Virus record (IMG/VR): IMGVR_UViG_3300042898_003677
Coordinates: 1 to 64,000 of that record
DNA length: 64,000 nt
Origin: a virus
Strand: one strand, 5' to 3'
Position numbers and translations under genes: made by a program. This document shows, piece after piece, positions 6,052 through 62,442 of the stretch. Under the pieces are notes generated by a model. It was not told the origin of the DNA. It was given only the letters and a program-made list of their open reading frames with translations, and made no database searches. Position 1 is the first letter of the stretch. Every line of letters starts with the position of its first letter.

Positions 6052-6059
6052 TATAAATA
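6052..6059 (-). promoter_or_regulatory. Putative late promoter motif of fibre 2
   Basis: The coding strand reads CTATTTATAGAATAAA here, 53 nt before the ATG at 5998 and after the terminator of fibre 1. It is one of twelve copies of the TATTTATN motif in the window. The leader is the longest of the set. Confidence 0.55.
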
Positions 6060-6084
6060 GATTAATAAACTTATTTGGATAGTT

Positions 6085-6123
6085 TAAATAAAAAAAATCC
6101 CCCACTTTTTGAGTGAGGGATTT
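6085..6123 (-). terminator. Intrinsic terminator after fibre 1
   Basis: A 12-position stem with one mismatch (6095-6106 with 6112-6123) and a 5-nt loop is followed on the minus strand by a run of eight T. It lies 18 bp after the stop codon of the 6142-13227 gene, in the direction of transcription. Confidence 0.9.
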
Positions 6124-6141
6124 CTCTTAGTTATAATTAAT

Positions 6142-9100
6142 TTAGAATATTATTCTTGTATTAACTTTAACATCCCAATCTCCTACTGAAACACCAGCTT
6201 GAAGTTGAACGTCAGCACCTACGACTACAACTCTAAACTCTATACCGAGTGTTGAACCTCCTAAGTCAGGTGTTGAGTATTCGGTGAATTCTGCAAAACT
6301 ATCATTCCAAACACCCATAACAACACCACTTCTTCTATAATTTAAGTTATGTTCTATAACAACGTATTCAAAATGACAACTGCTACCTGTTGAACTTGGG
6401 AATGACTCTATAACTGTTGTACCAGGACTTACGGTTGCGTAATCTACAGTTTGAGTTCTTTGACCTCCGTAAAGTGTTAAATACTGTTGGTCATATGTCA
6501 AACCACTTTCAGCGATTGCTCCATTTGCAGTTCCATCAGAAGTTAACACTCTTGTTAATGATGGATTTGTAACTGCGGTAAACCCTGTTCCAGAAGTTCC
6601 ACTTGAACCTGAACTACCTGAAGTTCCTGACGAACCTGAGCTTCCTGAAGTTCCACTTGAACCTGAAGAACCAGAAGTTCCTGATGAACCTGAACTTCCT
6701 GATGTTCCACTTGAACCTGATGTTCCTGAAGAACCACTTGAACCTGACGAACCTGATTGACCTATACCTGCGACTTGGATTAACACATCGTCAGCGTTTG
6801 CCGGTACCCAATCACTTCCTGATAAGTAATCAAGTGCAAATTCCCAATAACTACCATTGTCAGCACCATTACCATTTTGTGTATAGTATATTACATCTGA
6901 ACCACCAACTAATCTTGTAATTTTCCAAAGTGTACCATTACCTAATGTTCCATAAATCGCACTATAGTTAGGTGTATTTGATAATGGAGTTTCACCAATT
7001 AATAGTGTAAACGGTGTTATTGGAAACCCGTCAGCCGGTACTGCATTTCTAACTTTTTGATTTCCAGGACTTCCTGTAGTATAATCCCAAATATTATCAA
7101 TAATATAACCTGAAGAACCTGATGTTCCTGATGAGCCAGATGTTCCTGAGCTACCGCTAGTTCCTGAAGAACCGCTAGTTCCACTTGAACCTGATGTTCC
7201 TGAAGAACCTGAGCTTCCGCTAGTTCCTGAAGAACCGCTAGTTCCACTTGAACCTGATGTTCCTGAAGAACCTGAGCTTCCGCTAGTTCCTGAAGAACCA
7301 CTTGAGCCAGATGTTCCTGAAGAACCGCTAGTTCCACTTGAACCTGATGTTCCTGAAGAACCTGAGCTTCCACTAGTTCCTGAAGAACCACTTGAGCCAG
7401 ATGTTCCTGAAGAACCTGAGCTTCCACTAGTTCCTGAAGAACCACTTGAGCCAGATGTTCCTGAAGAACCGCTAGTTCCACTTGAACCTGAAAGTCCTGT
7501 AGTTGTAACACACCAATAATAAACATCTGGTAATAAAGGTGCTCCAGTACCTGTTCCTCCAATATATGTAACACTAAAGGTAATTCCACCTCCACCAATT
7601 GTTGGGGTATTATTTAATTGATAAATGTAAGTTCCTGATGGTGTGGTAATTATTATTTCTGTACCAGCACCAACATTACTCCAAAAACCGCTTCTATTTA
7701 CACCATTATAATCATTAAATAAAGTCTTAATAGATGTTGCTAAAGTCCAATCGATATTGTTTACCACTTGAGCCTGACCTTGAACTGTCGGTACACTTGT
7801 TATGTGGTCATAAGGGAAACAATTACCATCAATACCTGATGTTCCTGATGAGCCACTTGTTCCTGACGAACCTGATGTACCACTTGAACCTGAACTTCCG
7901 CTAGTTCCGCTTGAACCTGATGTTCCTGACGAACCGCTAGTACCCGAAGAACCTGATGTTCCGCTAGTTCCTGATGAACCTGATGTTCCACTAGTACCTG
8001 ATGAACCTGAAGTTCCGCTAGTACCCGAAGAACCTGATGTTCCTGATGAACCTGAAGTTCCGCTAGTTCCTGATGAGCCACTTGTTCCTGACGAACCTGA
8101 TGTTCCTGATGAACCTGAAGTTCCGCTAGTACCTGATGAACCTGAAGTTCCGCTAGTTCCTGATGAGCCACTTGTTCCTGACGAACCTGATGTACCACTT
8201 GAACCTGAACTTCCGCTAGTTCCGCTTGAACCTGATGTTCCTGACGAACCGCTAGTTCCTGATGAACCTGATGTTCCACTAGTACCTGATGAACCTGAAG
8301 TTCCGCTAGTACCCGAAGAACCTGATGTTCCCGATGAACCTGAAGTTCCGCTAGTTCCTGATGAGCCACTTGTTCCTGACGAACCTGATGTTCCTGATGA
8401 ACCTGAAGTTCCGCTAGTACCTGATGAACCTGAAGTTCCGCTTGTACCTGATGAACCACTTGTTCCTGAAGAACCTGATGTTCCGCTTGTACCTGATGAA
8501 CCTGATGTACCACTTGAACCTGAACTTCCGCTAGTTCCGCTTGAACCTGATGTTCCTGACGAACCGCTAGTACCCGAAGAACCTGATGTTCCGCTAGTTC
8601 CTGATGAACCTGATGTTCCACTAGTACCTGATGAGCCACTTGTTCCTGACGAACCTGATGTTCCTGATGAACCTGAAGTTCCGCTAGTACCCGAAGAACC
8701 TGATGTTCCCGATGAACCTGAAGTTCCGCTAGTTCCTGATGAGCCACTTGTTCCTGACGAACCTGATGTTCCTGAAGAACCTGAAGTTCCAGATGTTCCA
8801 CTAGTTCCTGAAGAACCTGATGTTCCTGAAGTACCACTTGTTCCCGAAGAACCTGAAGTACCACTAGTTCCTGATGAACCTGACGAACCTGAAGTTCCCG
8901 AAGAACCTGATGTTCCAGATGTTCCGCTAGTTCCTGAAGAACCTGATGTTCCTGAAGTACCACTTGTTCCCGAAGAACCTGAAGTACCACTAGTTCCCGA
9001 AGAACCTGATGTTCCAGATGTTCCGCTAGTTCCTGAAGAACCTGATGTTCCTGAAGAACCTGACGAACCTGATGTTCCCGAAGAACCTGATGTTCCAGAT

Positions 9101-12100
9101 GTTCCGCTAGTTCCTGAAGAACCTGATGAACCTGAAGAACCTGAAGTTCCATTTGTACCGCTTGTTCCTGAAGAACCTGAAGTACCACTAGTTCCTGATG
9201 AACCTGACGAACCTGATGTTCCCGAAGAACCTGATGTTCCAGATGTTCCGCTAGTTCCTGAAGAACCTGATGTTCCTGAAGAACCTGATGTTCCACTAGT
9301 TCCTGATGAACCACTTGAACCTGAAGTTCCGCTAGTACCTGATGAACCTGATGTTCCGCTTGTTCCTGATGAACCTGAAGAACCTGAAGTTCCATTTGTA
9401 CCGCTTGTTCCTGAAGAACCTGATGAACCTGATGTTCCACTAGTTCCTGAAGAACCACTTGAACCTGAAGTTCCGCTAGTACCTGATGAACCTGATGTTC
9501 CGCTTGTTCCTGATGAACCTGAAGAACCTGAAGTTCCATTTGTACCGCTTGTTCCTGAAGAACCTGAAGTTCCGCTAGTTCCTGAAGAACCTGATGTTCC
9601 TGAAGAACCTGATGTTCCTGAAGAACCTGACGAACCTGATGTTCCCGAAGAACCTGATGTTCCAGAAGTTCCGCTAGTACCTGATGAACCTGATGTTCCG
9701 CTTGTTCCTGATGAACCTGAAGAACCTGATGTTCCACTAGTTCCTGAAGAACCACTTGAACCTGAAGTTCCGCTAGTACCTGATGAACCTGATGTTCCGC
9801 TAGTTCCTGAAGAACCTGATGAACCTGAAGAACCTGAAGTTCCATTTGTACCGCTTGTTCCTGAAGAACCTGATGAACCTGATGTTCCACTAGTTCCTGA
9901 AGAACCACTTGAACCTGAAGTTCCGCTAGTACCTGATGAACCTGATGTTCCGCTTGTTCCTGATGAACCTGAAGAACCTGAAGTTCCATTTGTACCGCTT
10001 GTTCCTGAAGAACCTGAAGTTCCGCTTGTTCCTGAAGAACCTGAAGTTCCGCTAGTACCTGATGAACCTGATGTTCCGCTCGTTCCTGATGAACCTGAGC
10101 TACCTGATGTTCCGCTCGTTCCTGATGAACCTGATGTTCCGCTCGTTCCTGATGAACCTGAAGTTCCATTTGTACCGCTTGTTCCTGAAGAACCTGATGT
10201 TCCGCTCGTTCCTGATGAACCTGAGCTACCTGATGTTCCGCTCGTTCCTGATGAACCTGATGTTCCGCTTGTTCCTGATGAACCTGAAGAACCTGAAGTT
10301 CCGCTAGTTCCTGATGAACCTGATGAACCACTTGAACCTGAAGTTCCATTTGTACCACTTGTTCCTGATGAACCTGAGCTACCTGATGTACCAGAAGTTC
10401 CTGAAGAACCTGAAGTTCCGCTCGTTCCTGATGAACCTGAAGAACCTGAAGTTCCACTAGTTCCTGACGAACCTGAAGTTCCGCTAGTACCTGATGAACC
10501 TGATGTACCACTTGTTCCTGACGAACCTGATGTTCCTGACGAACCACTTAAACCTGAAGTTCCGCTAGTACCTGACGAACCTGATGTTCCTGACGAACCA
10601 CTTGAACCTGAAGTTCCGCTAGTACCTGACGAACCTGAAGTTCCATTTGTACCACTTGTTCCTGATGAACCTGAGCTACCTGATGTTCCTGAAGAGCCAG
10701 ATGTTCCATTTGTACCGCTTGTTCCTGATGAACCTGATGTTCCATTTGTACCGCTTGTTCCTGATGAACCTGAAGTTCCACTTGAACCTGATGTTCCTGA
10801 AGTACCATCAGCACCGCTTACACCTGATGTTCCGCTCGTTCCTGAAGAGCCAGATGTACCATTTGTACCGCTTGTTCCCGATGAACCTGATGTTCCGCTC
10901 GTTCCTGAAGAACCTGATGTACCATTTGTACCGCTTGTTCCTGAAGAACCTGATGTTCCGCTAGTTCCTGATGAACCTGAAGTTCCGCTCGTTCCTGATG
11001 AACCACTTGAACCTGAAGTTCCATTTGTACCGCTTGTTCCTGAAGAACCTGATGTTCCGCTCGTTCCTGATGAACCTGAAGTTCCGCTTGTTCCTGATGA
11101 ACCTGAAGAACCTGAAGTTCCATTTGTACCGCTTGTTCCCGATGAACCTGATGTTCCGCTCGTTCCTGATGAACCACTTGAACCTGAAGTTCCATTTGTA
11201 CCGCTTGTTCCCGATGAACCTGATGTTCCGCTCGTTCCTGAAGAACCTGATGTACCATTTGTACCACTTGTTCCTGATGAACCTGAAGAACCTGAAGTTC
11301 CACTAGTTCCTGACGAACCTGAAGTTCCGCTAGTTCCTGATGAACCACTTGAACCTGAAGTTCCATTTGTACCACTTGTTCCTGATGAACCTGAGCTACC
11401 TGATGTACCAGAAGTTCCTGAAGAACCTGAAGTTCCATTTGTACCACTTGTTCCTGATGAACCTGAGCTACCTGATGTACCAGAAGTTCCCGATGAACCT
11501 GAAGTTCCGCTTGTTCCTGATGAACCTGATGTTCCGCTTGTTCCTGATGAACCTGATGTTCCGCTTGTTCCTGATGAACCTGAAGTTCCGCTCGTTCCTG
11601 ATGAACCACTTGAACCTGAAGTTCCGCTAGTACCTGAAGAACCACTTGAACCTGAAGTTCCATTTGTACCACTTGTTCCTGAAGAACCACTTGAACCTGA
11701 AGTTCCATTTGTACCGCTTGTTCCCGATGAACCTGAAGTTCCGCTCGTTCCTGATGAACCACTTGAACCTGAAGTTCCATTTGTACCGCTTGTTCCTGAA
11801 GAACCGCTTGAACCTGAAGTTCCATTTGTACCGCTTGTTCCTGAAGAACCGCTTGTTCCTGAAGAACCGCCTGTTCCTGATGAACCTGAAGTTCCACTTG
11901 TTCCTGATGAACCTGAAGTTCCACTTGTTCCTGAAGAACCTGAGGAACCGCCTGTTCCTGACGAACCACTAGTTCCTGACGAACCACTAGTTCCTGAAGT
12001 TCCGTCAGCACCACTTACACCTGATGTTCCTGATGTTCCTGAAGAACCTGATGTACCATTTGTACCGCTCGTTCCTGATGAACCACTTGAACCTGATGTA

Positions 12101-13227
12101 CCATTTGTGCCGCTTGTTCCTGATGAACCTGATGTACCATTTGTACCGCTTGTTCCTGAAGAACCCGATGTACCATTTGTGCCGCTTGTTCCTGATGAAC
12201 CTGAAGTTCCGCTCGTTCCTGAAGAACCTGATGTTCCGCTAGTTCCTGATGAACCACTTGAACCTGAAGTACCAGATGAACCTGATGTTCCACTAGTACC
12301 ATTGATACCACTAATACCAGATGTTCCTGAAGTCCCACTTGTTCCTGAAGAACCAGATGAACCTGAAGTTCCCCCTGTTATTGTAACTGTTATTGCACCG
12401 TCACCATCATTAGTAACAGAAGCACCATTGAATGTTATACCAGTGACATTACTTACGGTTGTAACTCCGTCTCCAACTGTTAAAGGACTACCTCCTCCTG
12501 AGGTAAATCCTGTAATTTGAATGTCGTCACCAAGTGAATTTGTTAATGTTAAAGTTTGTGTACCGGAATTATAAGTTCCACCTGTAATTGGCGCAGTAAA
12601 TCCTGAAATTGTAATAGTACCACCTGTATTATTGTATAAATCTAAATCTGAAGTTCCTGAGAAATAAGTACCACCTGTAATTTGTACATCACTACCCCAA
12701 AATATTTGCCATCTGGCATTATTCTTAGTTACCCCACCAACACCTTCAATTGTTGAGCCTGTCCAAGCATCAAGAAGGGCCGCTCCTTGTGGCGTATCAT
12801 CATAAACCTCATAACCACTACCTAAATCAATGATAGAACCAGCAGTTTCAGCATCATCCCACATTGACGTAAATCCTGTCATCGTGTATTGGTACACAGT
12901 GTCTGTCTCTTGGACATACACCTGCATACCTAATCTTCTACGACCTGAAGAAATACCATCGTTATTTAATGTTAGCGTGTTTGGTAATGAATAAGGTACG
13001 TTATAAGTTAAGTTAATAGGAATTGAGTTTCCTGAGTAGTAAACAACACCCCCATTAATTAAAATGTCATTTGGAATTATGAAATCTAGGTCAGATAAGG
13101 AGTAAACTTCCATATATCCACCAATTCCAAGTACACTAAAATTTGTACCGGTATTATTTTCTCTAATGACTGAATCAGGAGTCTGAAGAATGGTTGTTGA
13201 TACGGGGTTTTTATATTGAAAACTCAT
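6142..13227 (-). CDS. Giant Gly-X-Y repeat fibre protein 1 (2361 aa) with interspersed domains
   Basis: A probable long tail fibre or whisker. The head (residues 1 to about 290) is non-repetitive and rich in Gly, Thr and beta-type segments. A long array of Gly-(Thr/Ser)-(Ser/Asn) triplets follows (about 12360-7840). Two globular islands of about 115 residues then interrupt the array (about 7838-7490, beginning GNCFPYDHIT; about 7110-6750, beginning GYIIDNIWDY), each followed by more triplets. The last 150 residues are a unique C-terminal domain, probably the tip, ending in KVNTRIIF. No enzymatic motif is visible. Two GVSGADG interruptions occur within the array. Without Pro the triplets are unlike ordinary collagen; a polyglycine-II-like or other extended rod is possible. 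The gene has its own late motif and terminator. It is similar in design to the neighbouring fibre 2 and may be a paralogue. Confidence 0.88.
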   Translation of the reverse strand: MSFQYKNPVSTTILQTPDSVIRENNTGTNFSVLGIGGYMEVYSLSDLDFIIPNDILINGGVVYYSGNSIPINLTYNVPYSLPNTLTLNNDGISSGRRRLGMQVYVQETDTVYQYTMTGFTSMWDDAETAGSIIDLGSGYEVYDDTPQGAALLDAWTGSTIEGVGGVTKNNARWQIFWGSDVQITGGTYFSGTSDLDLYNNTGGTITISGFTAPITGGTYNSGTQTLTLTNSLGDDIQITGFTSGGGSPLTVGDGVTTVSNVTGITFNGASVTNDGDGAITVTITGGTSGSSGSSGTSGTSGTSGISGINGTSGTSGSSGTSGSSGSSGTSGTSGSSGTSGTSGSSGTSGTNGTSGSSGTSGTNGTSGSSGTSGTNGTSGSSGSSGTSGTNGTSGSSGTSGTSGVSGADGTSGTSGSSGTSGSSGTGGSSGSSGTSGTSGSSGTSGTSGSSGTGGSSGTSGSSGTSGTNGTSGSSGSSGTSGTNGTSGSSGSSGTSGTSGSSGTSGTNGTSGSSGSSGTSGTNGTSGSSGSSGTSGTSGSSGSSGTSGTSGSSGTSGTSGSSGTSGTSGSSGTSGTSGSSGTSGTSGSSGSSGTSGTNGTSGSSGTSGTSGSSGSSGTSGTNGTSGSSGSSGTSGTSGSSGTSGTSGSSGSSGTSGTNGTSGSSGTSGTSGSSGTSGTNGTSGSSGSSGTSGTSGSSGTSGTNGTSGSSGSSGTSGTSGSSGTSGTSGSSGTSGTNGTSGSSGSSGTSGTSGSSGTSGTSGSSGTSGTNGTSGSSGTSGTSGSSGTSGTNGTSGSSGTSGTSGVSGADGTSGTSGSSGTSGSSGTSGTNGTSGSSGTSGTNGTSGSSGTSGSSGSSGTSGTNGTSGSSGTSGTSGSSGSSGTSGSSGTSGTSGLSGSSGTSGSSGTSGTSGSSGTSGTSGSSGTSGTSGSSGSSGTSGTSGSSGTSGTSGSSGSSGTSGTNGTSGSSGSSGSSGTSGTSGSSGSSGTSGTSGSSGTSGTSGSSGSSGTSGTSGSSGTSGTNGTSGSSGTSGTSGSSGTSGTSGSSGSSGTSGTSGSSGTSGTSGSSGTSGTSGSSGTSGTNGTSGSSGSSGTSGTSGSSGTSGTSGSSGSSGTSGTSGSSGSSGTSGTNGTSGSSGSSGSSGTSGTSGSSGTSGTSGSSGSSGTSGTSGSSGSSGTSGTSGSSGTSGTSGTSGSSGTSGSSGSSGTSGSSGTSGSSGTSGTSGSSGTSGTNGTSGSSGSSGTSGTSGSSGTSGTSGSSGSSGTSGTSGSSGSSGTSGTNGTSGSSGSSGTSGTSGSSGTSGTSGSSGSSGTSGTSGSSGTSGSSGTSGTSGTSGSSGTSGSSGSSGTSGTSGSSGTSGTNGTSGSSGSSGSSGTSGTSGTSGSSGTSGSSGSSGTSGSSGTSGTSGTSGSSGTSGTSGSSGTSGTSGTSGSSGTSGTSGTSGSSGTSGSSGSSGTSGTSGSSGTSGTSGTSGSSGTSGTSGTSGSSGTSGSSGTSGSSGTSGTSGSSGTSGSSGTSGTSGSSGTSGSSGTSGSSGTSGTSGSSGTSGTSGSSGTSGSSGTSGSSGTSGSSGSSGTSGSSGTSGTSGSSGTSGSSGTSGTSGSSGTSGTSGSSGTSGSSGTSGSSGTSGTSGSSGTSGSSGTSGTSGSSGTSGTSGSSGTSGSSGTSGSSGTSGSSGSSGTSGSSGTSGSSGTSGTSGSSGTSGTSGSSGTSGSSGTSGSSGTSGTSGSSGTSGSSGTSGTSGSSGTSGTSGSSGTSGTSGSSGTSGSSGTSGSSGTSGSSGSSGTSGSSGTSGSSGTSGIDGNCFPYDHITSVPTVQGQAQVVNNIDWTLATSIKTLFNDYNGVNRSGFWSNVGAGTEIIITTPSGTYIYQLNNTPTIGGGGITFSVTYIGGTGTGAPLLPDVYYWCVTTTGLSGSSGTSGSSGTSGSSGSSGTSGSSGSSGTSGSSGSSGTSGSSGSSGTSGSSGTSGSSGTSGSSGSSGTSGSSGSSGTSGSSGTSGSSGTSGSSGSSGTSGSSGTSGSSGTSGSSGTSGSSGTSGSSGYIIDNIWDYTTGSPGNQKVRNAVPADGFPITPFTLLIGETPLSNTPNYSAIYGTLGNGTLWKITRLVGGSDVIYYTQNGNGADNGSYWEFALDYLSGSDWVPANADDVLIQVAGIGQSGSSGSSGSSGTSGSSGTSGSSGSSGTSGSSGSSGTSGSSGSSGTSGSSGSSGTSGTGFTAVTNPSLTRVLTSDGTANGAIAESGLTYDQQYLTLYGGQRTQTVDYATVSPGTTVIESFPSSTGSSCHFEYVVIEHNLNYRRSGVVMGVWNDSFAEFTEYSTPDLGGSTLGIEFRVVVVGADVQLQAGVSVGDWDVKVNTRIIF
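6590..6760 (-). repeat. Short Gly-X-Y array before the C-terminal domain of fibre 1
   Basis: A coding array of GTS/GSS triplets links the second island to the C-terminal domain. Confidence 0.85.
7115..7490 (-). repeat. Gly-X-Y array between the two islands of fibre 1
   Basis: A coding array of GTS/GSS triplets. Near-identical blocks of 60 to 100 bp recur within it, for example the stretches starting near 7145, 7215 and 7275. Confidence 0.8.
7840..12360 (-). repeat. Main Gly-X-Y array of fibre 1, with a 315-bp higher-order period
   Basis: About 4.5 kb of triplet-coding repeat. A distinctive block reading cctgatgtaccacttgaacc on the plus strand recurs at 7871, 8186 and 8501, that is every 315 bp (105 residues), inside longer similar blocks with a few indels. 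Asn-containing triplets (GTN) are common from about 9140 to 12200 and absent nearer the C-terminal end. Confidence 0.85.
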
Positions 13228-13243: not shown

Positions 13244-13251
13244 AATAAATA
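13244..13251 (-). promoter_or_regulatory. Putative late promoter motif of fibre 1
   Basis: The coding strand reads ATATTTATTAAATAA, 16 nt before the ATG at 13227 and just after the stop codon of the preceding gene. Confidence 0.55.
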
Positions 13252-13263: not shown

Positions 13264-15477
13264 TTATACTAGCGTGCCTCCTCGGAAATACCAAGCGTTT
13301 CCGTTGTTAGTTATGGTCAATCCACCCGCAGGTTTTGTAACATATACTCTGTAAGTACCCGCAGGTATATTTGCTGAGCCTGTGTAGTTTATTATTAAAC
13401 TATTATAAATTGAACTCACAACCGTATCAGTTGCCGGTGGGTTAGCATTACCATTCAAGATTGTAGAATACTTTTGTCCGTTAGTCGCTCCCGTTGATAC
13501 AAACCAAACATAGTACGCCACTTCAGTAGGATTTGGTACTGTCGCAGCAGGAACTTGGATTGTTTGGAATCTATAAGCAACTATCGGGTTACCAAAAGCG
13601 TCATTACCACCACTTGTTGTTGAAATTGGCGCTGTGAATATTGCTGGTTCAGATACACCCCATCCACTGTAGGCAATATAGGTGTTCATTTGTGTATTAA
13701 ATGTCGCCTGTATTGTTGATGGTGAAGTAATGTTAAATCCTCTGAACGCACTTCCTTGTGCCAGCATATAGTTGTTTAACGCAGTTCTGATTGTTGCGTC
13801 GTTTCTATCGATGAACAAATACGCCTGTATTGGTTGTGCCGATGGAGTTGGTGTTGGAGTAGTTGTAGTGGTTGGCGTTGGTGACGCAGTATTAGTAGGT
13901 GTTTGAGTTGGAGTATTTGTTGCGGTTTGTGTTGGTGTTGGAGTCGATGTCTGTGTTGGAGTTGGTGTCTTTGTTTGTGTTGGTGTTTGTGTTGGTGTTG
14001 AAGTATTAGTTGCGGTATTTGTAGGCGTAGGAGTATTAGTCGCAGTTTGCGATGGTGTTGGTGTTTGTGTCGGTGTTGGAGTCTGAGTTCTCGTTGGTGT
14101 TTGTGTTGGGGTCTGAGTTCTCGTTGGTGTTTGTGTTGGTGTTTGTGTTGGACTAGCAGTAATAGACGGTGTTGGAGTGTTAGTCGATGTTGCGGTTTGT
14201 GTTGGGGTTGGCGTATTAGTTGCTGTTTGTGTTGGAGTATTAGTCGCAGTATTAGTTGGAGTATTAGTTGCCGTATTAGTTGGCGTCTGAGTTGGAGTAT
14301 TAGTGGCAGTATTGGTTGGTGTTTGAGTATTAGTCGCAGTATTAGTTGGCGTTTGCGTTGGCGTTTGAGTTGCAGTATTAGTTGGTGTAGGTGTTGGAGT
14401 CTGAGTTGCGGTATTAGTTGGAGTCTGAGTTGGACTAGCAGTAATAGACGGTGTTGGTGTCGGTGTGATATCAGATGTAACTGAAGGTGTAGGTGTATTT
14501 GTTTGTGTCGCAGTTTGTGTTGGTGTAACCGTATTAGTCGCAGTAATTGTAGGTGTCTGCGTAGCAGTTTGTGTTGGTGTATTAGTGGCAGTTTGAGTTG
14601 GTGTCGCGGTTTGAGTTGGTGTGTTAGTTGCAGTTTGTGTTGGTGTGTTAGTTGCAGTTTGTGTTGGTGTGTTAGTTGCAGTTTGTGTTGGTGTGTTAGT
14701 TGCAGTATTAGTTGGTGTTTGGGTAACCGTTGGTGTTTGAGTAGGCGTAGAAGTATTGGTCGGTGTTTGAGTAACCGTTGGAGTTTGTGTTGGAGTTGAA
14801 GTTTGTGTCGGAGTTTGTGTTCTTGTCGCTGTTTGTGTCGGAGTTTGGGTTCTTGTTGGAGTCTGTGTAGGTGTTGCAGTCCTTGTGTTAGTTGGGGTCT
14901 GTGTTGGTGTTGAAGTATTTGTTGCGGTGTTAGTTGGCGTGTGAGTGTTAGTTGGAGTCTGTGTTGGTGTTGAAGTTGATGTATTTGTTGGCGTAGGTGT
15001 TTTAGTTTGGGTTGCAGTATTAGTTGGTGTGTGAGTTTGGGTATTTGTAGGTGTATTTGTTGGAGTATGCGAAGGGGTATTTGTTACCGTATTAGTAGGT
15101 GTGATAGTCGGTGTTACAGATGGTGTCGCGGTAGATGTCGGGCTAACAGTTTGTGTTGGCGTACTTGTGGCACCTGGAGTCGTAGAAGTAGGTGTTGGTG
15201 TTGGCGTAGTTGTTGGCGTATAAGTTGGGGTAGGTGTTGGTGTTGGGGTGAAATCAAAGCACACCACATAACCATCAATCATTTGTTGTCTGGTTATATC
15301 AGTGGCATATGCCGGCTCAGAAGTTGAATTTATGAATATATCAAATGGACCAATTGCGTTAGAACTAGCTGGTATTCTAACAATATAACAAGATGGCCCG
15401 GTGACTGTAATCTGTTTTTGAACCTCAGTATTACACCCCGTTGCCTTATTGACACAAATTATAGTTTCTAACGACAT
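13264..15477 (-). CDS. Thr-Pro-rich linker protein, fibre or adhesin (737 aa)
   Basis: Three parts are visible. A head of about 75 residues with several Cys ([16 protein letters not shown]) ends in a Cys shortly before the linker. Residues about 77-545 are a Thr-Pro-Asn-Gln-Ser linker made of TPT, TNT and TQT units. The C-terminal domain of about 190 residues begins [10 protein letters not shown] and ends YFRGGTLV. The linker should form an extended, stiff, protease-resistant rod holding the C-terminal domain away from the particle. The C-terminal domain is not recognised and would be the candidate receptor-binding part. The gene lies between the SprB-repeat protein and the giant fibres, so a host-contact role is inferred. 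Short Thr-Pro runs also occur in two other proteins of this window. Confidence 0.75.
13840..15250 (-). repeat. Thr-Pro coding repeat region
   Basis: Low-complexity coding DNA built on a 6-bp unit for Thr-Pro, with longer periods caused by TNTPTQT-type units. For example, the block reading tgcagtttgtgttggtgtgt (plus strand) is repeated in tandem around 14630-14710. Confidence 0.85.
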
Positions 15478-15486: not shown

Positions 15487-15494
15487 TATAAATA
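15487..15494 (-). promoter_or_regulatory. Putative late promoter motif of the Thr-Pro protein
   Basis: The coding strand reads GTATTTATATTAAAA only 9 nt before the ATG at 15477, the shortest distance of the set. If it is a -10 element, the transcript would be almost leaderless. Confidence 0.5.
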
Positions 15495-22277: not shown

Positions 22278-22285
22278 AATAAATA
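22278..22285 (-). promoter_or_regulatory. Putative late promoter motif of the 302/992/822/108 operon
   Basis: The coding strand reads CTATTTATTAAAATAA, 17 nt before the ATG at 22260 and two bases after the stop codon of the upstream gene. Confidence 0.55.
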
Positions 22286-31084: not shown

Positions 31085-31092
31085 GATAAATA
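31085..31092 (-). promoter_or_regulatory. Putative late promoter motif of the 1739-aa protein operon
   Basis: The coding strand reads CTATTTATCAATAAAA, 12 nt before the ATG at 31072, inside a 93-bp gap after gp6. No clear terminator precedes it. Confidence 0.55.
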
Positions 31093-33511: not shown

Positions 33512-33519
33512 TATAAATA
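33512..33519 (-). promoter_or_regulatory. Putative late promoter motif of the gp25-gp6 operon
   Basis: The coding strand reads TATAGGTATTTATAAGAAA, 30 nt before the ATG at 33481 and just after the nrdA terminator. The surrounding bases are almost the same as at 43012-43019. Confidence 0.6.
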
Positions 33520-33526: not shown

Positions 33527-33556
33527 AATAAAAAATCCCGACATAGTGTCGGGATT
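33527..33556 (-). terminator. Intrinsic terminator after nrdA
   Basis: A perfect 10-bp stem (33534-33543 with 33547-33556) with a 3-nt loop is followed on the minus strand by a run of T. It separates the nucleotide-metabolism genes from the gp25-gp6 operon. Confidence 0.92.
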
Positions 33557-38372: not shown

Positions 38373-38380
38373 GATAAATA
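38373..38380 (-). promoter_or_regulatory. TATTTATC motif before the helicase gene
   Basis: The coding strand reads ATATTTATCAATACTC, 18 nt before the ATG at 38354 and next to the stop codon of the 38381-38833 gene. It is the only copy in front of a replication gene, so late re-expression of helicase and reductase, or a chance match, are both possible. Confidence 0.4.
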
Positions 38381-42013: not shown

Positions 42014-42045
42014 CAAATATAGGGTTTAAAAAATTACTAGTCAAA
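42014..42045 (-). promoter_or_regulatory. Bacteroidetes-type promoter of the gp32-like gene
   Basis: On the coding strand TTTG (42042-42045) is followed after 20 bases by TATATTTG (42014-42021), a full match to the Bacteroidetes vegetative promoter (TTTG, 19-21 bp, TAnnTTTG). It lies 29 nt before the ATG at 41984 and directly after the terminator of the upstream operon. It suggests transcription by the unmodified host RNA polymerase. Confidence 0.75.
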
Positions 42046-42998: not shown

Positions 42999-43011
42999 AA
43001 CCAATTTTTCT

Positions 43012-43019
43012 TATAAATA
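43012..43019 (-). promoter_or_regulatory. Putative late promoter motif of the 42998-42110 operon
   Basis: The coding strand reads TATAGATATTTATAAGAAA, 13 nt before the ATG at 42998. The flanks are almost identical to those at 33512-33519. Confidence 0.6.
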
Positions 43020-49938: not shown

Positions 49939-52900
49939 TTATAATAATTGAACTTTACCGATTACAACATCTGTTGTTATTTCTGTTGACCATACTGTCT
50001 TATTAGTATCCGAATTATTTTTCAAACCTAAAGACTTAATTAAATCTATTTGTGGTGGAACAGGTAATGTGTTTATAGTATATGTAAATAATCTACCTTT
50101 ATTTATATCATTATATGGTGTGTAAATAACATATTTCTTTAACGGACCCGTTGCTAATCCATCCAAGAAAGTAGTTGCCGCATTATTTTCGTAATTGTAA
50201 ATTGTCTTAATTGGTGTTTCGCTTGAGGGTCTTGGTCCTATCCAATAAGCGTCAAATTGTTCCCCAAAGTTAGTCGCCTGATTTCCAATAATAGTTGGAT
50301 TGTTTAATATGTTAGCAATTAACGCATCTTTAAATGATTGATATAAATTAGAATCAGTAACATCTTTATTCAAAATAAAATACTGTCTTCTGTTAGAATC
50401 ATTCTCCCAAAATTCAGGGTATTTTAACAATGTTATTGGTTCAAAAACCGAACCACTATCATAGTTTTCAGTATCACCAACAGATGGTATTAAAGATGAT
50501 TCATATTGTTGATTATCAAACGTAAACTCTTCAGTATTTTCAATATCAAGTGTGAATTGGAAAAGACTGTCGGTTATTGTTGTCAAATCATCAGTTAATT
50601 CATTGTAAGTAGATTTTGTCGCCCCCGCATAATTTGCAGATACTTTATCCGTACCTTCTATCTCATAAACAACAATGTTACCATTAGACTCTTTAAATCC
50701 ATCAGTACCATCTTTTAAGTTAGGGTATGTAATAACATTAGTCCTATTTAATTGTTGGATGTAAGAAGTTTGTGTGTTAACTAATTCGTTAATTATTGAT
50801 GTTAAAGCATTTTGGAAACCACTTTGTTTATTTCTAATAAAACTAATATAATTCTCTTTCAATTGCCTAATTGATTTGTTAGAGAAGTTTTTGGTTGGAT
50901 TACTCATCCAAAGCATAAACCCTTCAAGATTATCATCAATATCATTTATAAATTTAGAGAAAACAGAATCAACTGATTGTTGGATTGTTGATGGTTTACC
51001 AAAGATATACTTTTGTTCAATATTGTAATAAAAATCTCCATATTGATAATTTCTATTGTAAGCAATAATTTGTCTAACAGCATTATTATATTGTTTCAAA
51101 ATATCCTTATTTTTATTTAATACTGTTGTAAAATAATTTTGTGTTGACCCAACAAACTGCGTCATAAATTGTTGATAATCAATTGTACCTGTCGTCTCAT
51201 TTTCACCAATTTCGGTTGTTAAAACTTTACCAATAGTCTCAGCGTTTGACTCAGTTTGTTCATCTTCAGTATCAGTTACTACAGGTGGTGGAACTTCAAT
51301 ACCTAAGTTTTTGATAAACTGTTGGTCTAAAATTTTATAACTATCATCAGTGGCGTCTGCTCTGTCGTCATAAATTTCAGTATTAGCGTAGAAGTTAAAT
51401 GACAACGCATTTTGTAATTTATCAACCGCCGTTTTTAATCCTTGTCCACCAACAAAATTGAATGATAATTGAATTTTAGCAATCATAGGTTGGACACCAA
51501 TACCTTCAGGATTTAAATCTAATTGCTCATATGAAATACCTAAAGAATTTGGTATAATTTTAGAATGGTAGAAATCCCCAACTCTTAATATTAAGACAGG
51601 TGGCGCGCCAAACGCAGTGTTTACAGCATTATTGTATTCTAACGATGATGACCCGTCAGTAGCGTTTTTAACCGTAGGTATTGTATCACCAGGTCTCATA
51701 CACTGTTGTAAGAATGTTAGTCTACCGTTTAAACCTTCAGGTGTTATTGAATGGAATGCAGGGTGAAAGAATTTTAATTTATCTCTAAGGTTGTCATAAA
51801 CCATAGGGGTTTCTTGTCTAATCAATTCAAAATAGTCACACTCAGATAATAATTTTCTTAAAACTCTTTTAGTGATATTATCTCTAAGACTTGTTGTTGT
51901 TTCAACAACTTGTTCTACAGTTGTTTTGGTTGAAACCTCTGTTGATATCTGTGATTGATATTTTGGTGATGATTGGTCAATAATTGGTGGTGTTTTTGGT
52001 ACACTTGGGATATTGACATTAAGATTGAATTTAACCCTTCTACAAGACATCGCATTTACACTATAGATGGCTTCAGGTCTTGATAATCTATCAGCATCCA
52101 AATTAGCACAATTAAATGTCTCAAATTTCATATTATTTTGACCAACAGGTTGTACAGTTGTATTTTCACCTTTCGGTATTAATACTAAAGTTAATTGTTT
52201 TGTTACGTCAATAGCATTTGCCAATTGTCCAATAGAACGGATGTATTGAACAACAGAATCCAATCTTCTTTGGGATAGAGCGTCGTTATAATTTACGGTT
52301 TGTGGTTTTGACGCACTACCTTCTAATATTAACTCAACTTTTGCGTCAGGATTAATTTTTAAAGTTTCATCTAACTTATACAACATCTCCTGTAGTTTAT
52401 TCTTATTAAACTCAATAACACTTGGGAAGAAGTTGTTTACCGCAGATGGGTTGGCACTATCTCTGTCATAAATTGCTCTCGTATTAGCGTTTGTATAAAC
52501 AGAATAATAACTAGTATAATTTTCAACAGTTTGGTCTTTAAGTGGGTAATCGTTTTCAAAATACAAACCATAATTGTTAAAACTTTCCAAGTAAGTTTTA
52601 GTTTGGTCCGTATTGTTTGCCGTTTGTGACCCAATATTAGTATTACCACCACCAGGAGTTCCATTCGCCCCTGTTGACCCATCACCTGTTTGTACCGTAT
52701 TAACAAGATATCTTATCTCTTCAGTTGTAACATTTTTACTTTGGATTTTTTGTTGAATTTCAAATAAATCTTGTGTGTTGAATTGGTAGTATTTTTCAGC
52801 CAACTCATATAAGTCATATTTTTTACAACCTGCAAAGAACGAATCTAACAACCCTTGAACTCTTTCTCTTGACTGTTCATTAGCTAATACTCGATTAACA

Positions 52901-55017: not shown

Positions 55018-55025
55018 AATAAATA
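55018..55025 (-). promoter_or_regulatory. Putative late promoter motif of the hub operon
   Basis: The coding strand reads CTATTTATTAAATAAAA, 12 nt before the ATG at 55005, in the 37-bp gap after the tape-measure gene. Confidence 0.55.
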
Positions 55026-55042: not shown

Positions 55043-56725
55043 TTATTGGTTTTTAACAATCGCTCTATTACCACTTTCAATAACTTGTTGGTAGATTTTG
55101 TTTTTAAACTCTGTTGAGTTTAGTATATCTTCAAATTCTTTTCTTGTCATTCCTGGAGATGTTTCAACTTGAAACTTAACAGTACCATTCATAGACACAT
55201 CTTGTTGGATTTTAACATTTTTTTCCTTCAATCCAACACTATCCTGTATCATTTTAATAGTTTTATTATACATTCCTTCAATCTCACTCTTAGGTTTGTT
55301 ATCTCCCAAGTTAGCTAAGAATGTTTTCATCATTTCAGCTGACTTATCTTTAGTACCTTCATAAGCACTTTCAATAGCACTTAACGCTTCATCGATACTT
55401 TTAGCGTCTTTTTTCTGAGCCGCGTTATAAACCAAAGACCTAATATCATCACCGACACCTTCAAACATTTTTCTAATGTCTTGGGAACTACCCATAGCAC
55501 TAAAAGACGCCCCTTGCACGTCTTCTCCAACTCTTCTAAAACCTTCTAAGTTTCTAAATACTGAGGTTTGTCCAACAAGAGAAGCTGCTAATCCATCTGC
55601 CATAGATTTCAAATAATTAGTTTGAAGTTCGTCAAAAGATAATTGTTTTAAGGCGATTTCCTCCATAGTTTTTGGAGTATCTTCTTGTTGTTTTACAAGT
55701 TTTTCAAACTGTCCCTGAGATAGTTCTGAAAGTTTCTTATATCCTTCCTCATCAGATACTTTAACAATATATTCACCACCCTCATCTCTTTTAGCTAAAT
55801 TAGCGACTAAAGTCTTATCTTCATCAGATGCGTCAATACTAAAACTTATATCAGCTAAACGAGTATCTAAATCTAACGCAGCAATTGCAGCTTTTTTCAA
55901 GTTTTCTGCCCCCAATCCAGTTTCTTGACCAATTTCCTTTAACATTCTTAACCCATATGGATTAATTTCAAATCTCTGCGTTTCTTCGTTGAACTGAGCA
56001 TATGTTTTGGCCATATTGATAATACTATCTTGTAGTTTACCAGGGTCATTAATCGAAGCATCCATTAATGCAAACGGGTCAACCAAAGTCCCCATTGTTA
56101 CACCAAGTCTTTGAAATGTTGACGCCATTTTTATTGCCCCCTCAGGGTCCATAACTGAGTCCGCGAATTCAGCCGTCTTATTCATATCATACCTCAACAT
56201 AGACGCTTGAGCCGCCATTTTTGTTAAACCCATAACACCATCTTGGAAATTAAATCGGTTCATCATATCCATATTCTCTACAACGTCCTTCATAATTTCC
56301 CTAGCATTTAACCCTAAACTTTGGATATAACTTATACTATCAACGGTTCGTTCAGCGATTAAAGACGCTTCCATACCAGCTTTACCAAAAGATTCTGTAA
56401 GGTTTTGAACTTCTGTATCAAGGTATTTACCAGCGGCATAAAGTTCTGTGATTGTTTCGGTAGTGGCAATCATATTTCTTCGAGACCCTTCAGCGACTTG
56501 GGCAATTACCCTACCAGCATCAGCTGCGGTACCACCAAGTCTTGTAACCTCTCTTACACTATCAGCAACACTTGTCGAAAACTCTGTAACCCTTGTTCTT
56601 GATTCACCAAAAGCGTTATTGGTTTTTGTAACAGCATCACTAATTTGGTTGAAAATATCAGCGGAAGTTTTTAAAGGTTTAAAAAACTTTTCTAAATTTT
56701 CAAATAATTCATCCATTTGACCCAT
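55043..56725 (-). CDS. Tail tape-measure protein candidate (560 aa)
   Basis: The protein is mostly helical and rich in Ala, Ser and Met with repeated coiled-coil stretches (IFNQISDAVTKTNNAFGESR, VAEGSRRNMIATTETITELY, YNAAQKKDAKSIDEALSAIE). There is no enzyme motif. It follows the gp26-like and 59-residue putative chaperone genes, the place of the tape measure in contractile phages. The length is close to T4 gp29 (590 aa), so a tail of T4-like length is expected. No strong hydrophobic segment is visible, as in gp29. A late motif precedes it. Confidence 0.72.
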   Translation of the reverse strand: MGQMDELFENLEKFFKPLKTSADIFNQISDAVTKTNNAFGESRTRVTEFSTSVADSVREVTRLGGTAADAGRVIAQVAEGSRRNMIATTETITELYAAGKYLDTEVQNLTESFGKAGMEASLIAERTVDSISYIQSLGLNAREIMKDVVENMDMMNRFNFQDGVMGLTKMAAQASMLRYDMNKTAEFADSVMDPEGAIKMASTFQRLGVTMGTLVDPFALMDASINDPGKLQDSIINMAKTYAQFNEETQRFEINPYGLRMLKEIGQETGLGAENLKKAAIAALDLDTRLADISFSIDASDEDKTLVANLAKRDEGGEYIVKVSDEEGYKKLSELSQGQFEKLVKQQEDTPKTMEEIALKQLSFDELQTNYLKSMADGLAASLVGQTSVFRNLEGFRRVGEDVQGASFSAMGSSQDIRKMFEGVGDDIRSLVYNAAQKKDAKSIDEALSAIESAYEGTKDKSAEMMKTFLANLGDNKPKSEIEGMYNKTIKMIQDSVGLKEKNVKIQQDVSMNGTVKFQVETSPGMTRKEFEDILNSTEFKNKIYQQVIESGNRAIVKNQ

Positions 56726-56741: not shown

Positions 56742-56749
56742 TATAAATA
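56742..56749 (-). promoter_or_regulatory. Putative late promoter motif of the tape-measure gene
   Basis: The coding strand reads CTATTTATAGAAAAAAAG, 16 nt before the ATG at 56725 and after the stop of the 59-residue gene. Confidence 0.58.
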
Positions 56750-57643: not shown

Positions 57644-57645
57644 AA

Positions 57646-57710: not shown

Positions 57711-58199
57711 TTAATAAATTAACACACAACGGTCCATTCTAAGTGTTGTTGCAATGGTTGCTAATCCATCCTGACTGTAATTCAACTGGTTAAAGTTAAC
57801 ATCACTTAAGAATGTTCCATATAATATCCATTTTTCTACTACAACACCTGTTGGGTCTAACATCTCAAGGTCGACATCTTTTTTGTAACCCGCAGCATAA
57901 CCCATACGACCAGTTACTGATTCCGCACATAAACGAACCCATTCCATCATAGCTTGTGCGGCTGAAGGTCCAATTGGGTCACGGAATGTTACCGGAATTG
58001 TCTGCCAGTTAAATCTACCCGCAACGAATGTAGATGTATTTAAAAACGGTATTTCAACCGGATTAATTGTAATGTGTGGTCGAGCAGCGCTCTCAACAAA
58101 CCATTCGTTGATACCCAAAGATGATGGGAACCTTAGAATGAATCGGTTCATTCTTTTAGGTTCGTAAGGTATCGGCATTTTCATTAATAAATCAGCCAT
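57711..58199 (-). CDS. Tail tube protein, gp19-like (162 aa)
   Basis: It forms the stacked hexameric rings of the inner tail tube. The sequence pattern is that of gp19: N-terminal KRMNRFILRFPSSLGINEWFVESAARPHI, then INPVEIPFLNTSTFVAGRFNWQTIPVTFRDPIG, a helix (QAMMEWVRLCAESV) and the final beta-strands (VEKWILYGTFLSDVNFNQLNYSQDG). The length is identical to that expected of T4-type tubes (163 aa). It has its own late motif and strong terminator, as fits a highly expressed protein. Confidence 0.95.
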   Translation of the reverse strand: MADLLMKMPIPYEPKRMNRFILRFPSSLGINEWFVESAARPHITINPVEIPFLNTSTFVAGRFNWQTIPVTFRDPIGPSAAQAMMEWVRLCAESVTGRMGYAAGYKKDVDLEMLDPTGVVVEKWILYGTFLSDVNFNQLNYSQDGLATIATTLRMDRCVLIY

Positions 58200-58232: not shown

Positions 58233-58240
58233 TATAAATA
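58233..58240 (-). promoter_or_regulatory. Putative late promoter motif of the tail tube gene
   Basis: The coding strand reads GTATATTTATAGATAAA, 33 nt before the ATG at 58199, in the 126-bp gap after the HAD-like gene. I see nothing else definite in that gap. Confidence 0.55.
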
Positions 58241-59182: not shown

Positions 59183-59197
59183 ATAATTAGTAGTTTA

Positions 59198-62100
59198 TTA
59201 GATATTTTCAAACGAAGCTCCTGTTGGAGTAATGAAGAATTCGATATCGATGAATTCAAGTGCCTTCGTTGGTTTTAAGTAAATTTTACCTGTTAATGTA
59301 TTTCTGTCTAAATCTTCAGGTGAAGAACTTACTGTTACACGGAAGTCGTAAAGACCTCTATCTCTTCTGATTGAATCCAAGATTGGGTTTACAGAATCCA
59401 AGAATTGTTGTCTTACGATTTCGTCGTTTTGTTCAAACAATAATCTTACAGCTACCGCTGAAATCAACTTACGAGCTTGTAGTAACAATCTTCTTACGTT
59501 CAATCTGTTCAATGCTGAATCAGAAACTTGTAGAGTTTTGTTACCCCAAATTACTGTTCCTACGTCTGCGAAAGTTGCGATAGGGTTGATACGACCTTGG
59601 TAAAGAGTATCTCTATCTTCTTGAGTTAGTTTTAATCTTGCTTTGATTGAGTTTACAAGACCTCTTGTGTAACCCGCAGATGCGAACCAAGGGAATGAAA
59701 TGTTATCAGTCAATGCTAAGTTTCTACAAACTTCACCTGTTGGGGGTAGATAGATTTGAGTGTTGTTAACAGTATCTCTTGTTAAAATCCAAGGATAGAA
59801 CGTTGCTGTATAACTTGAGTCGATACCTGTTTGGTCAAGATTATCAACCGCTTCTTGAGGGTAAATAATTTCAAATTGACTGTTAGCGTCAGGTGTATAC
59901 ATATTGTAATCAGGTGTTGTTACAATGTAAACAGAGTCCGCTCTTTCGTTAGACACCATTCCGATTGCCAATTCACACAAGTTAGAATTGTTAACATAAT
60001 CGATACTTGCGGTTGCAAATACATTGATGTTTGTTGATTCAGGGTTGTTGAACGACAAGATACCAAGTAAGTATGCGTAGTAGTCGGTGTTAGCAAAGTC
60101 TTGAGTGTTGTTAGCAACAACTATTCTTTTAAATGTACCGTCTCCTGTAGCGTTAGGGTATCTAACTGATGGGTAAGCACCTTGTAAGAAACCTGATGCA
60201 CCTAATGCGAATCTGTCTTGGTTTGTTCTAAACTCTCTATAGATATCCCATCCGTCAAATCCACCTTGGAAACACATAGTGTATTTTCTTGAATATAAGA
60301 AGTAGTATGGGTTTTCTTGAGTTGTAGGTTCGTCAGAGAAATTAGCTACACCACAAACAAACGCCGCTTGTCCACTAGTTACGAATGCATCACCGATAGT
60401 TACAATTGTTGCTCCTGAATCCATATGGAAACCTTGTGTTAAGTAATTCCAAGGTGCCGATTCTGTAGCCAAGTACCAGTTAGTAACAGGATTTTGTTTA
60501 CCTTTGTATTGTAACAAGTCAGAATCAATACCTAAAGAACTTGAAAAACCTAAGTAAGTTCTTCTTACGATATCTCCTGATGAGGTTACAATGTTAGAAC
60601 CACCTGCAGTTGTACCAAATGGTGGGTCAAATACTGTTTCACCTGGATAATAATATTTGTTTTTGATTATTGCGAAAGGTGATGGATTTGATGCTGTTTC
60701 GTAAACTCTTGATTCTAAACCATAGAATCCACAAGGAAGTGCATCTATTACATATTCGTCAGATAACTCAATCATAATATATGCCGAGTTTAAAGGATAT
60801 TCACCATCTGATGAACCAACTTTTTTAGCTACGAAACTGTTTGAACCCGGGTCCATCGTACAGTTTGTGTATTTTTCATAAACAACAGGATTAGCATCTG
60901 TGTCAAAGAAATCACGAACTAAGATGTCAAATGTCATATTACTGAACGAAAGGTTAGCAATTGAAATTTTAACTTCTGTGTTAGCTGAGTTACCATCAGA
61001 GATAGAAACAAATCTAAATAATTTGTAAACCTTGTTACCTCTTAATTCAGATACAACATAAGGTGTTTTAGGTGTTTGATATCTATCAAGGTACCAAGCG
61101 ATTGTCGTTGTAGATGAAGTATCTCTCGCTTCAGGTAAAGCAACCATTTCTGGCTGAATACCTCTAATGTAACCTTTATTATAACCATAGTTTAAAAGAC
61201 CAGGGTAAGACTCCTCAACAAATACAGGAACTTGAGTTCTTGGTTTGAAGAAGTTTGTCACACCTAATACTTTTGTAATATAATTTGAATTATTTGATTG
61301 GAATGATACATCAAATGTAAATCCTGAACCTTGATAAGTTGCCCCACTCAATTGGAATGTTGCAAAAGGACTTTGTGATATACCTGAGTATGCGCCTGTT
61401 GTAACCATTTGTAAATCTGTAAGACCTGTAACTTGGTAAGTCATACCGTGGTCGTTAGCGTCATAGATTGAAATACCTCTTGAACGTAGAGTTGCAACAA
61501 CCAAGTTATTGTAATCTGTATAAGCAGTACCACTATAAGTGTAGATACTACCTGACAATGTTCCGTAGAATGTTCCCGAAGCGCCTGTAAAGTAATTTGA
61601 AACCGCATAATCCCAAGAATAACCTGAGTAACCATTACCTGTTGTTGGATTGAATGCTGCGTAGAACCAAGTGTCGTTGTTTCCGTCAGTTAAATCGTTA
61701 GCTTCCAAATCAATACTATCACAACCAAATTGGTTAGTTAAACCTGTAAATGTTCCATCAAGGTTTGTATAACCTGTTGTTGGGATTGCTCCGTAAACAA
61801 CTGCAGTTGTTGCTGAAAGATTTGTATTACCTGATATACTTTGTACAAACGATGTGATGTCTGAATTATAAGTTGATGTTGAACCATCCGCTAATGTATA
61901 CTGAACATTCAACTCATTAGATAACACTGAAGGTAATGACGATGTGAATGTAATCGTACTACCTGATGAATATCCACTAAAGTTTGCAGTAAAGTTTTGA
62001 GGGATAGCATATCCTGTGTCAATTCCAACAGTTGTTCCATCAACATTGGCAATTAATCTAATTGACCAAGATGGACCAGCATCATACCCTGACAAACCTA

Positions 62101-62398
62101 AAATTCTTGTTACGAATAATTGGTTAGATTGTTGTAGGTAAGACTTTGCAATGTAAGCCGCCTCATATTTAGGGATTTGAGTTCCGATAAATTTTACTGG
62201 TTCTGTTCCACCAAAAAATGTTTGGAATTCATCGTAATTTGTAATGAAGATTGGTTCGAAGGCTGGACCCTTTAAAGTCTCCCCAACTAATCCCAAAGTT
62301 GTAACACCTACGCTTTGTGCTACGAAAGATAAGTCTGTTTCTGAAGTATAAACGCCGGGTGAGACGAAAACCTTTTGATTTGCTTGTGCTGTTGCCAT
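59198..62398 (-). CDS. Contractile tail sheath protein, gp18-like (1066 aa)
   Basis: It forms the contractile sheath around the tube. The N-terminus (KVFVSPGVYTSETDLSF, then GLVGETLKGPAFEPIFITNYDEFQTFFGG) is typical of phage sheaths. The C-terminus also fits: RLNVRRLLLQARKLISAVAVRLLFEQNDE, then a domain with GLYDFRVTVSSSPEDLDRNTLTGKIYLKPTKALEFIDIEFFI. At 1066 residues it is well above T4 gp18 (659 aa). The extra length lies in the middle and is Ser/Thr/Tyr/Gly-rich, probably surface-exposed insertion domains. It has its own late motif and terminator. Confidence 0.95.
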   Translation of the reverse strand: MATAQANQKVFVSPGVYTSETDLSFVAQSVGVTTLGLVGETLKGPAFEPIFITNYDEFQTFFGGTEPVKFIGTQIPKYEAAYIAKSYLQQSNQLFVTRILGLSGYDAGPSWSIRLIANVDGTTVGIDTGYAIPQNFTANFSGYSSGSTITFTSSLPSVLSNELNVQYTLADGSTSTYNSDITSFVQSISGNTNLSATTAVVYGAIPTTGYTNLDGTFTGLTNQFGCDSIDLEANDLTDGNNDTWFYAAFNPTTGNGYSGYSWDYAVSNYFTGASGTFYGTLSGSIYTYSGTAYTDYNNLVVATLRSRGISIYDANDHGMTYQVTGLTDLQMVTTGAYSGISQSPFATFQLSGATYQGSGFTFDVSFQSNNSNYITKVLGVTNFFKPRTQVPVFVEESYPGLLNYGYNKGYIRGIQPEMVALPEARDTSSTTTIAWYLDRYQTPKTPYVVSELRGNKVYKLFRFVSISDGNSANTEVKISIANLSFSNMTFDILVRDFFDTDANPVVYEKYTNCTMDPGSNSFVAKKVGSSDGEYPLNSAYIMIELSDEYVIDALPCGFYGLESRVYETASNPSPFAIIKNKYYYPGETVFDPPFGTTAGGSNIVTSSGDIVRRTYLGFSSSLGIDSDLLQYKGKQNPVTNWYLATESAPWNYLTQGFHMDSGATIVTIGDAFVTSGQAAFVCGVANFSDEPTTQENPYYFLYSRKYTMCFQGGFDGWDIYREFRTNQDRFALGASGFLQGAYPSVRYPNATGDGTFKRIVVANNTQDFANTDYYAYLLGILSFNNPESTNINVFATASIDYVNNSNLCELAIGMVSNERADSVYIVTTPDYNMYTPDANSQFEIIYPQEAVDNLDQTGIDSSYTATFYPWILTRDTVNNTQIYLPPTGEVCRNLALTDNISFPWFASAGYTRGLVNSIKARLKLTQEDRDTLYQGRINPIATFADVGTVIWGNKTLQVSDSALNRLNVRRLLLQARKLISAVAVRLLFEQNDEIVRQQFLDSVNPILDSIRRDRGLYDFRVTVSSSPEDLDRNTLTGKIYLKPTKALEFIDIEFFITPTGASFENI

Positions 62399-62434
62399 TT
62401 AGTTATTCTTTTCTAAAAATGAATTTATTTTTAT

Positions 62435-62442
62435 CATAAATA
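62435..62442 (-). promoter_or_regulatory. Putative late promoter motif of the tail sheath gene
   Basis: The coding strand reads AAATATTTATGATAAAA, 36 nt before the ATG at 62398. It lies in the 124-bp divergent region shared with the rightward gene at 62523. Confidence 0.5.

Follow-up and report, generated by a model that had tools for sequence, protein, structure and literature searches.

Identification of a Putative Late Promoter Element

The heptamer TATTTAT, which recurs before genes in the first 64,000 nucleotides (nt) of the 150,075-nt virus record IMGVR_UViG_3300042898_003677 (bases 1-64000, hereafter the window), is probably the −10-type core of late promoters in T4-superfamily phages of Bacteroidota, read by a phage-encoded gp55-like sigma factor. 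The remainder of the record was also analysed, and the candidate for this factor, a protein of 250 amino acids (aa), is encoded there, outside the window (104907-105659). According to the proposed mechanism, host RNA polymerase carrying the phage sigma factor would melt the DNA at TATTTAT, at promoters devoid of a sequence-specific −35 element, and early genes such as that of the single-stranded DNA-binding protein (SSB) would keep host-type TTTG/TAnnTTTG promoters. A late promoter of a phage-coded sigma was the first option offered by the original prediction, made from the sequence of the window, and it is now well supported, with a likely gp55-like sigma found elsewhere in the genome.

Across the whole record, which carries genes on both strands, including large plus-strand gene blocks, TATTTAT was found on the coding strand in 34 of 75 leaders and in the antisense direction in five. 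The genome frequency of the word predicts 0.6 such leaders, and leaders simulated with an order-1 Markov model gave a mean of 2.7 (maximum 9 in 1000 sets). TATTTAT is the most enriched 7-mer in leaders, the top count of any 7-mer in 1000 simulated sets being at most 18. The window holds 18 minus-strand and five plus-strand copies, and its 1,446 non-coding nt contain 12 on the minus strand and none on the plus strand, compared with a mean of 1.04 and a maximum of 5 in 1000 dinucleotide-preserving shuffles. The expectation that the motif is commoner before genes than composition predicts was therefore borne out by shuffles, Markov controls, and strand bias alike. All 12 sites originally cited are present on the minus strand before genes (Table 1), at 8-54 nt from the called start where 9-53 nt had been given. 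The statement that all but one of them precede structural genes was too strong, as one lies before a DnaB-like helicase gene and another before a 76-aa gene without known function.

Table 1. TATTTAT cores and other promoter-related features of the window, with spacing measured to the called start; G2 is a related whole genome of 176 kb and Mel-JY01 a more distant phage.
Feature	Position	Strand	Spacing (nt)	Gene and remarks
TATTTAT core	6053..6059	−	54	Open reading frame ending at 5998 (1998+ aa, likely tail fibre)
TATTTAT core	13245..13251	−	17 (ATG)	6142-13227, collagen-like tail fibre gene (2361 aa)
TATTTAT core	15488..15494	−	10 (ATG)	13264-15477 (737 aa)
TATTTAT core	22279..22285	−	18 (ATG)	21352-22260 (302 aa); kept in G2 orthologue
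TATTTAT core	31086..31092	−	13	25853-31072 (1739 aa); kept in G2 orthologue
TATTTAT core	33513..33519	−	31	33011-33481, gp25-like baseplate gene; directly after terminator; kept in G2 orthologue
Intrinsic terminator-like hairpin with T tract	33534..33556	−		Just upstream of the 33513 promoter
TATTTAT core	38374..38380	−	19	36975-38354, DnaB-like helicase gene
Host-type promoter TTTG-N20-TATATTTG	42014..42045	−		41145-41984, SSB (gp32-like) gene, which has no TATTTAT
TATTTAT core	43013..43019	−	8 (TTG)	42774-43004; 14 nt to in-frame ATG (start uncertain)
TATTTAT core	55019..55025	−	13	49939-55005 (1688 aa); kept in G2 orthologue
TATTTAT core	56743..56749	−	17	55043-56725 (560 aa); kept in G2 orthologue
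TATTTAT core	58234..58240	−	34	57711-58199, tail tube gene; kept at 40 nt (G2) and 37 nt (Mel-JY01)
TATTTAT core	62436..62442	−	37	59198-62398, tail sheath gene; kept at 36 nt in G2

The location of the motif relative to transcription units also argues for a promoter. In three related genomes, TATTTAT precedes 84 of 184 genes that follow a tandem gap of at least 10 nt and 23 of 72 genes at strand switches, versus 5 of 208 genes in tight operons. Terminator-like hairpins lie within 70 nt upstream of 12 of 112 TATTTAT sites, compared with 3 of 400 random windows and 5 of 121 leaders without the motif, and at one divergent gene pair two copies stand back to back (84487-84493 and 84507-84513). Because TATTTAT sits at unit starts and after terminators and is nearly absent within tight operons, it is best read as a promoter and not as a ribosome-binding or processing signal.

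The description of the core as the reverse complement of the T4 late core was misleading and reflects a coincidence. The ratio of 34 sense to 5 antisense leaders indicates that TATTTAT works in the normal promoter orientation, in which TATTTATA and TATAAATA differ only in two bases at the centre; the literal reverse-complement reading was rejected on this ground. When both are aligned in the same orientation, A-12 and A-8 are kept, while positions −10 and −9 are changed. TATAAAT itself was found in two leaders of this genome versus 34 with TATTTAT, and TATTTAA appears as a minor variant (nine sense versus three antisense among leaders lacking the exact motif). Upstream of TATTTAT, no word of 4-5 nt rose above shuffles as a −35 element, and an A-rich tract was all that was seen. 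The base before the motif is seldom T (7 of 112 sites), and the frequent A reported after the core holds as an A-richness at the fifth to seventh nt after it (67-77% A at 69 sites with leaders of at least 12 nt).

Candidate Sigma Factor

The 250-aa protein is likely a gp55-like sigma, with a region 2 homologous to that of T4 gp55. It was the single match, a weak one, of the Sigma70_r2 model in this genome (E = 0.003 for this genome, E = 0.13 in the Pfam scan), and when many small genes were scanned with PHROGs and Pfam for gp55, gp33, and gp45, no direct gp55 match was returned. A profile built from 30 relatives of the protein matched T4 gp55 in the PDB (E = 0.016) and, among 390 phage proteins, recovered those of Mel-JY01 (3e-15), RM378 (p020, 1e-7), and T4 gp55 (4e-5), with the next match at 0.38. 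The aligned region 2 spans T4 residues ~18-146, and hhalign pairs gp55 residues 40-123 with residues 54-136 of the 250-aa protein. T4 gp55 flips A-12, A-9, and A-8 of TATAAATA (PMC7892883). Its residues Y97 and R57 are matched by invariant residues, Y97, which stacks on A-12, corresponding to Y110 of the 250-aa protein; the pocket residues H95 and T99 are replaced, position 95 being also variable among the aligned gp55 relatives.

A single-sequence AlphaFold model (predicted local distance difference test, pLDDT, 46) was replaced by one made with 30 relatives (pLDDT 75), which shows two helical domains. The second, residues 160-249 (pLDDT ~80-90), has no counterpart in T4 gp55. Foldseek searches of the PDB with this model ranked full-length sigma factors first, with gp55 matching over 133 columns (TM-score 0.59 by target length), and the best named viral matches were phage sigma factors. 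The protein departs from the gp55 type, which is ~185 aa long, ends in a sliding-clamp tail, and lacks region 4; Sigma70_r4 found no match in it, and no further sigma factor was detected in this genome with the Sigma70_r2 or r4 models. As a tentative and rather doubtful extension, the protein could be a natural single-chain late sigma in which a gp55-like region 2 is fused to a beta-flap-binding domain, either region-4-like or gp33-like, driving leaderless late mRNAs alongside a phage-coded bS21. A conserved 123-aa gene lies directly after the sigma gene (record 105677-106048, plus strand) and is a candidate sigma partner.

Conservation of the Motif in Related Phages

Relatives were gathered with the candidate sigma as query, and at least 584 loci were confirmed in IMG/VR among the 599 candidate stretches listed; a second clade, with 57-63% sigma identity, was also collected. 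In two further whole genomes, TATTTAT was found in 39 of 97 leaders (G1, 171.6 kb) and 37 of 84 leaders (G2). Reciprocal-best orthologues of genes with the motif keep it in 24 of 30 cases in G1, versus 5 of 71 for the others (Fisher, p = 4.5e-13), and in 16 of 22 versus 6 of 41 in G2 (p = 1.1e-5). In 88 of 96 loci, the 45 nt upstream of the called start of the gene after the sigma gene include TATTTAT, which is almost invariably separated from the ATG by 4 nt and lies between variable flanks. Seven of the eight loci without it resemble start-codon miscalls, and the sigma gene of one locus in this comparison is interrupted by an in-frame stop. In two relatives (L072:10001-10741 and L117:10001-10693), the sigma gene contains in-frame stops, possibly owing to frameshifts or assembly errors, and a contig in a bacterial metagenome-assembled genome (JAKPTO010000001.1) carries the phage sigma beside a glycosyltransferase-like gene and is probably a binned phage contig.

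More distant phages show related elements. Mel-JY01, listed as a Microcystis phage and with a sigma 24% identical, has ATATTTAT in 14 leaders in the sense direction and none in antisense, where 1.2 would be expected; its sigma, used as query, found no relatives in IMG/VR. The top leader word of RM378, a cultured Rhodothermus phage with 42% GC, is TATTTAA (27 leaders versus 1.7 expected and at most 7 simulated). In addition to the gp55-like p020 (L147:17032-17826, plus strand; annotated as hypothetical), RM378 carries an annotated extracytoplasmic function (ECF)-like sigma (L149, 28329-28928, minus strand).

Start Codon Spacing and Predicted Leaderless mRNAs

The distance from TATTTAT to the start codon is variable, from ~4 to 69 nt. 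Among 112 sites, one lies closer than 4 nt and 34 lie at 4-6 nt, mostly with T just before the ATG; the closest TATAAAT-ATG spacing in the T4 late region is 15 nt. The RNA polymerase of Flavobacterium (F. johnsoniae) initiates 4-5 nt after the −7 element, and for 87% of its predicted transcripts the leader exceeds 10 nt (PMC6847099). In the simplest reading, RNA would start about 5 nt after the last T of TATTTAT, and, given the start codons located 4-6 nt after the motif, we infer that some 30% of the late mRNAs would lack a leader or have almost none, with leaders of up to roughly 60 nt on the others.

Transcription Units and Host-Type Promoters

The distribution of the motif predicts how the genes of the capsid region are grouped. 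TATTTAT lies before the gene upstream of the capsid gene (115197-116705) and before the protease gene, and is absent before the capsid gene and before the gene following the protease, which predicts one unit made of the capsid gene and its upstream neighbour and another of the protease gene and its downstream neighbour. A homologue of bS21 (PF01165, E = 3e-6), encoded outside the window (record 118315-118500, plus strand), lies opposite this portal-protease-capsid block and has TATTTAA in its leader. The same arrangement has been described in freshwater bS21 phages with predicted Bacteroidetes hosts, and metatranscriptomes of these phages indicated that the block is not one operon, the capsid gene going with the upstream gene and the protease with the downstream gene (PMC9723584). 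These are the units predicted here by the motif, which is consistent with late, unit-wise transcription. As for the host-type element, 33 of the 41 leaders with either promoter have TATTTAT only, seven have TAnnTTTG only, and one has both; the Bacteroidota sigma-A signature TTTG/TAnnTTTG is not reproduced at TATTTAT sites, where T-12 A-11 and G-5 are not conserved.

Assessment of Alternative Explanations

Several observations weigh against a late promoter read by the gp55-like sigma. The support is computational, consisting of the motif, its position, conservation, strand bias, and sigma homology; we infer direct recognition of TATTTAT by the 250-aa protein from homology and co-occurrence, and the late timing of the TATTTAT units is likewise deduced. 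Taken by itself, the hhalign profile-profile match to gp55 is modest (probability 41%, E = 3e-4). Neither gp45 nor gp33 was found with PF02916, PF09116, or blastp, which are weak tools for diverged proteins in a possibly incomplete record, gp33 moreover having no dedicated model; with both undetected, a T4-style coupling of late transcription to replication is unsupported. In addition, the capsid gene itself lacks TATTTAT, and some genes that have it are non-structural, the DNA polymerase gene, with a copy 67 nt upstream, being a further instance of a gene preceded by the motif. Start codons were called with a simple longest-open-reading-frame caller.

The strongest competing explanation, although unlikely, keeps TATTTAT as a late promoter but assigns its recognition to a host alternative sigma, to host sigma-A modified by a phage factor, or to another phage protein. 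TATTTAT is similar to a portion of the Bacteroidota −7 element TAnnTTTG, its distance to the presumed start (4-5 nt) equals that of host sigma-A, and RM378 encodes a second annotated sigma besides p020, a fact that also counts against the gp55-like protein as the reader. However, the host determinants are not conserved at TATTTAT sites, the two promoter types coincide in a single leader, and models for regions 2 and 4 revealed no other sigma in this genome. Since relatives were searched for with the gp55-like sigma, all those compared necessarily have one, but the motif enrichment in them does not depend on that search.

A role at the RNA level is much less probable, whether TATTTAT served there as a site of cleavage or as a signal for initiating translation, in a phylum where ribosomes disregard the Shine-Dalgarno sequence. 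Many copies of the motif stand no more than 20 nt from the start codon, and leaders are A-rich; nevertheless, its near absence from tight operons, its broad range of spacings, its location after terminators, and the back-to-back copies at the divergent pair all speak against such a role. The processing and translation signals suggested by the original prediction were therefore rejected on operon position and spacing. Finally, although leaders are 75% A+T and contain many similar words, a by-product of this composition has next to no probability, being refuted by shuffle and Markov controls, strand asymmetry, and conservation at orthologous sites.

Gene Content of the Record

The protein content places the virus within the T4 superfamily, as a phage distantly related to T4. 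It includes a Gp23-type major capsid protein (PF07068, 7e-73), homologues of tail sheath, tail tube, and baseplate hub proteins (gp18/gp19-type tail), baseplate wedge proteins, a gp21-type protease, a PolB-type DNA polymerase, UvsX, a DnaB-type helicase, and a gp32-like SSB. Considering gene content and promoter type, the hosts are probably Bacteroidota bacteria.

Other features of the record were also observed. Two giant fibre-like genes occupy window positions 6142-13227 and 1-5998 on the minus strand, the larger giving numerous matches to collagen-like tail fibres, and are mostly 46-48% GC compared with 31-38% in the window beyond 16 kb. In the neighbouring 737-aa gene (13264-15477, minus strand), the GC skew is locally very strong (plus-strand value +0.435 over 14-16 kb) and opposite to that of its surroundings. 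A transfer-messenger RNA (tmRNA) gene with tag peptide GNTFAKLSALGLMREEKVAVA (record 135226-135621, plus strand) adjoins an array of 10 tRNAs (~136-144 kb). Two regions with sugar genes (record 75677-78536, minus strand, and 87110-104907, plus strand) encode glycosyltransferases, including PF11397, PF01755, and PF00852, together with nucleotide-sugar epimerase, cytidylyltransferase-like, and kinase-like genes, which suggests glycan synthesis or decoration of DNA or virions.

Comparison with Known Late Promoter Systems and Implications

Judged from sequence, the TATTTAT system is a variant of the T4 late promoter/gp55 kind. T4 late promoters, TATAAATA, are served by the sigma factor gp55, the coactivator gp33, and the sliding clamp gp45 (PMC2988020, PMC7892883). 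Both systems have a lone short −10-type element before structural genes, with no −35 element found here, and a phage-coded gp55-like region 2 alongside T4-superfamily capsid, sheath, tube, and baseplate genes. In contrast to T4, the core here is TATTTAT, gp33 and gp45 are unrecognised, the candidate sigma has an added C-terminal helical domain, and start codons lie down to 4 nt after the core, far closer than in the T4 late region. Late promoters have been reported as NATAAATA in cyanophage S-PM2 and TATAAATA in vibriophage KVP40 (PMC2984593); as in these phages, a gp55-dependent late element is deduced from sequence, although their centre is AAA and that of the present element is TTT flanked by TA and AT. 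Bacteroidota sigma-A (sigma-ABfr) promoters (PMC6847099), a type that this genome has upstream of SSB and a few further genes, share the predicted start 4-5 nt after the element, whereas TATTTAT sites lack both the T-12 A-11, G-5 signature and the −33 TTTG. The bS21 phages of Bacteroidetes have, like this one, a portal, protease, and capsid block with bS21 on the opposite strand; the words "promoter" and "sigma" did not turn up when the text of the paper on them (PMC9723584) was searched.

No paper was retrieved by a text search combining TATTTAT, "late promoter", and phage, and this putative late-promoter specificity within the T4 superfamily is without description in the papers searched; a candidate for its reader and a relative in culture, RM378, are available. 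Two unusual features are predicted: late mRNAs that lack leaders, and a late sigma with two domains. If the proposed reading is true, the late-gene map and transcription units of widespread aquatic Bacteroidota phages, represented by the sigma loci confirmed here, would become predictable from sequence. The predicted leaderless late mRNAs would then connect late transcription with the puzzling presence of bS21 genes in phages, and the two-domain sigma would offer a natural test of why the T4 late sigma stays split in two.

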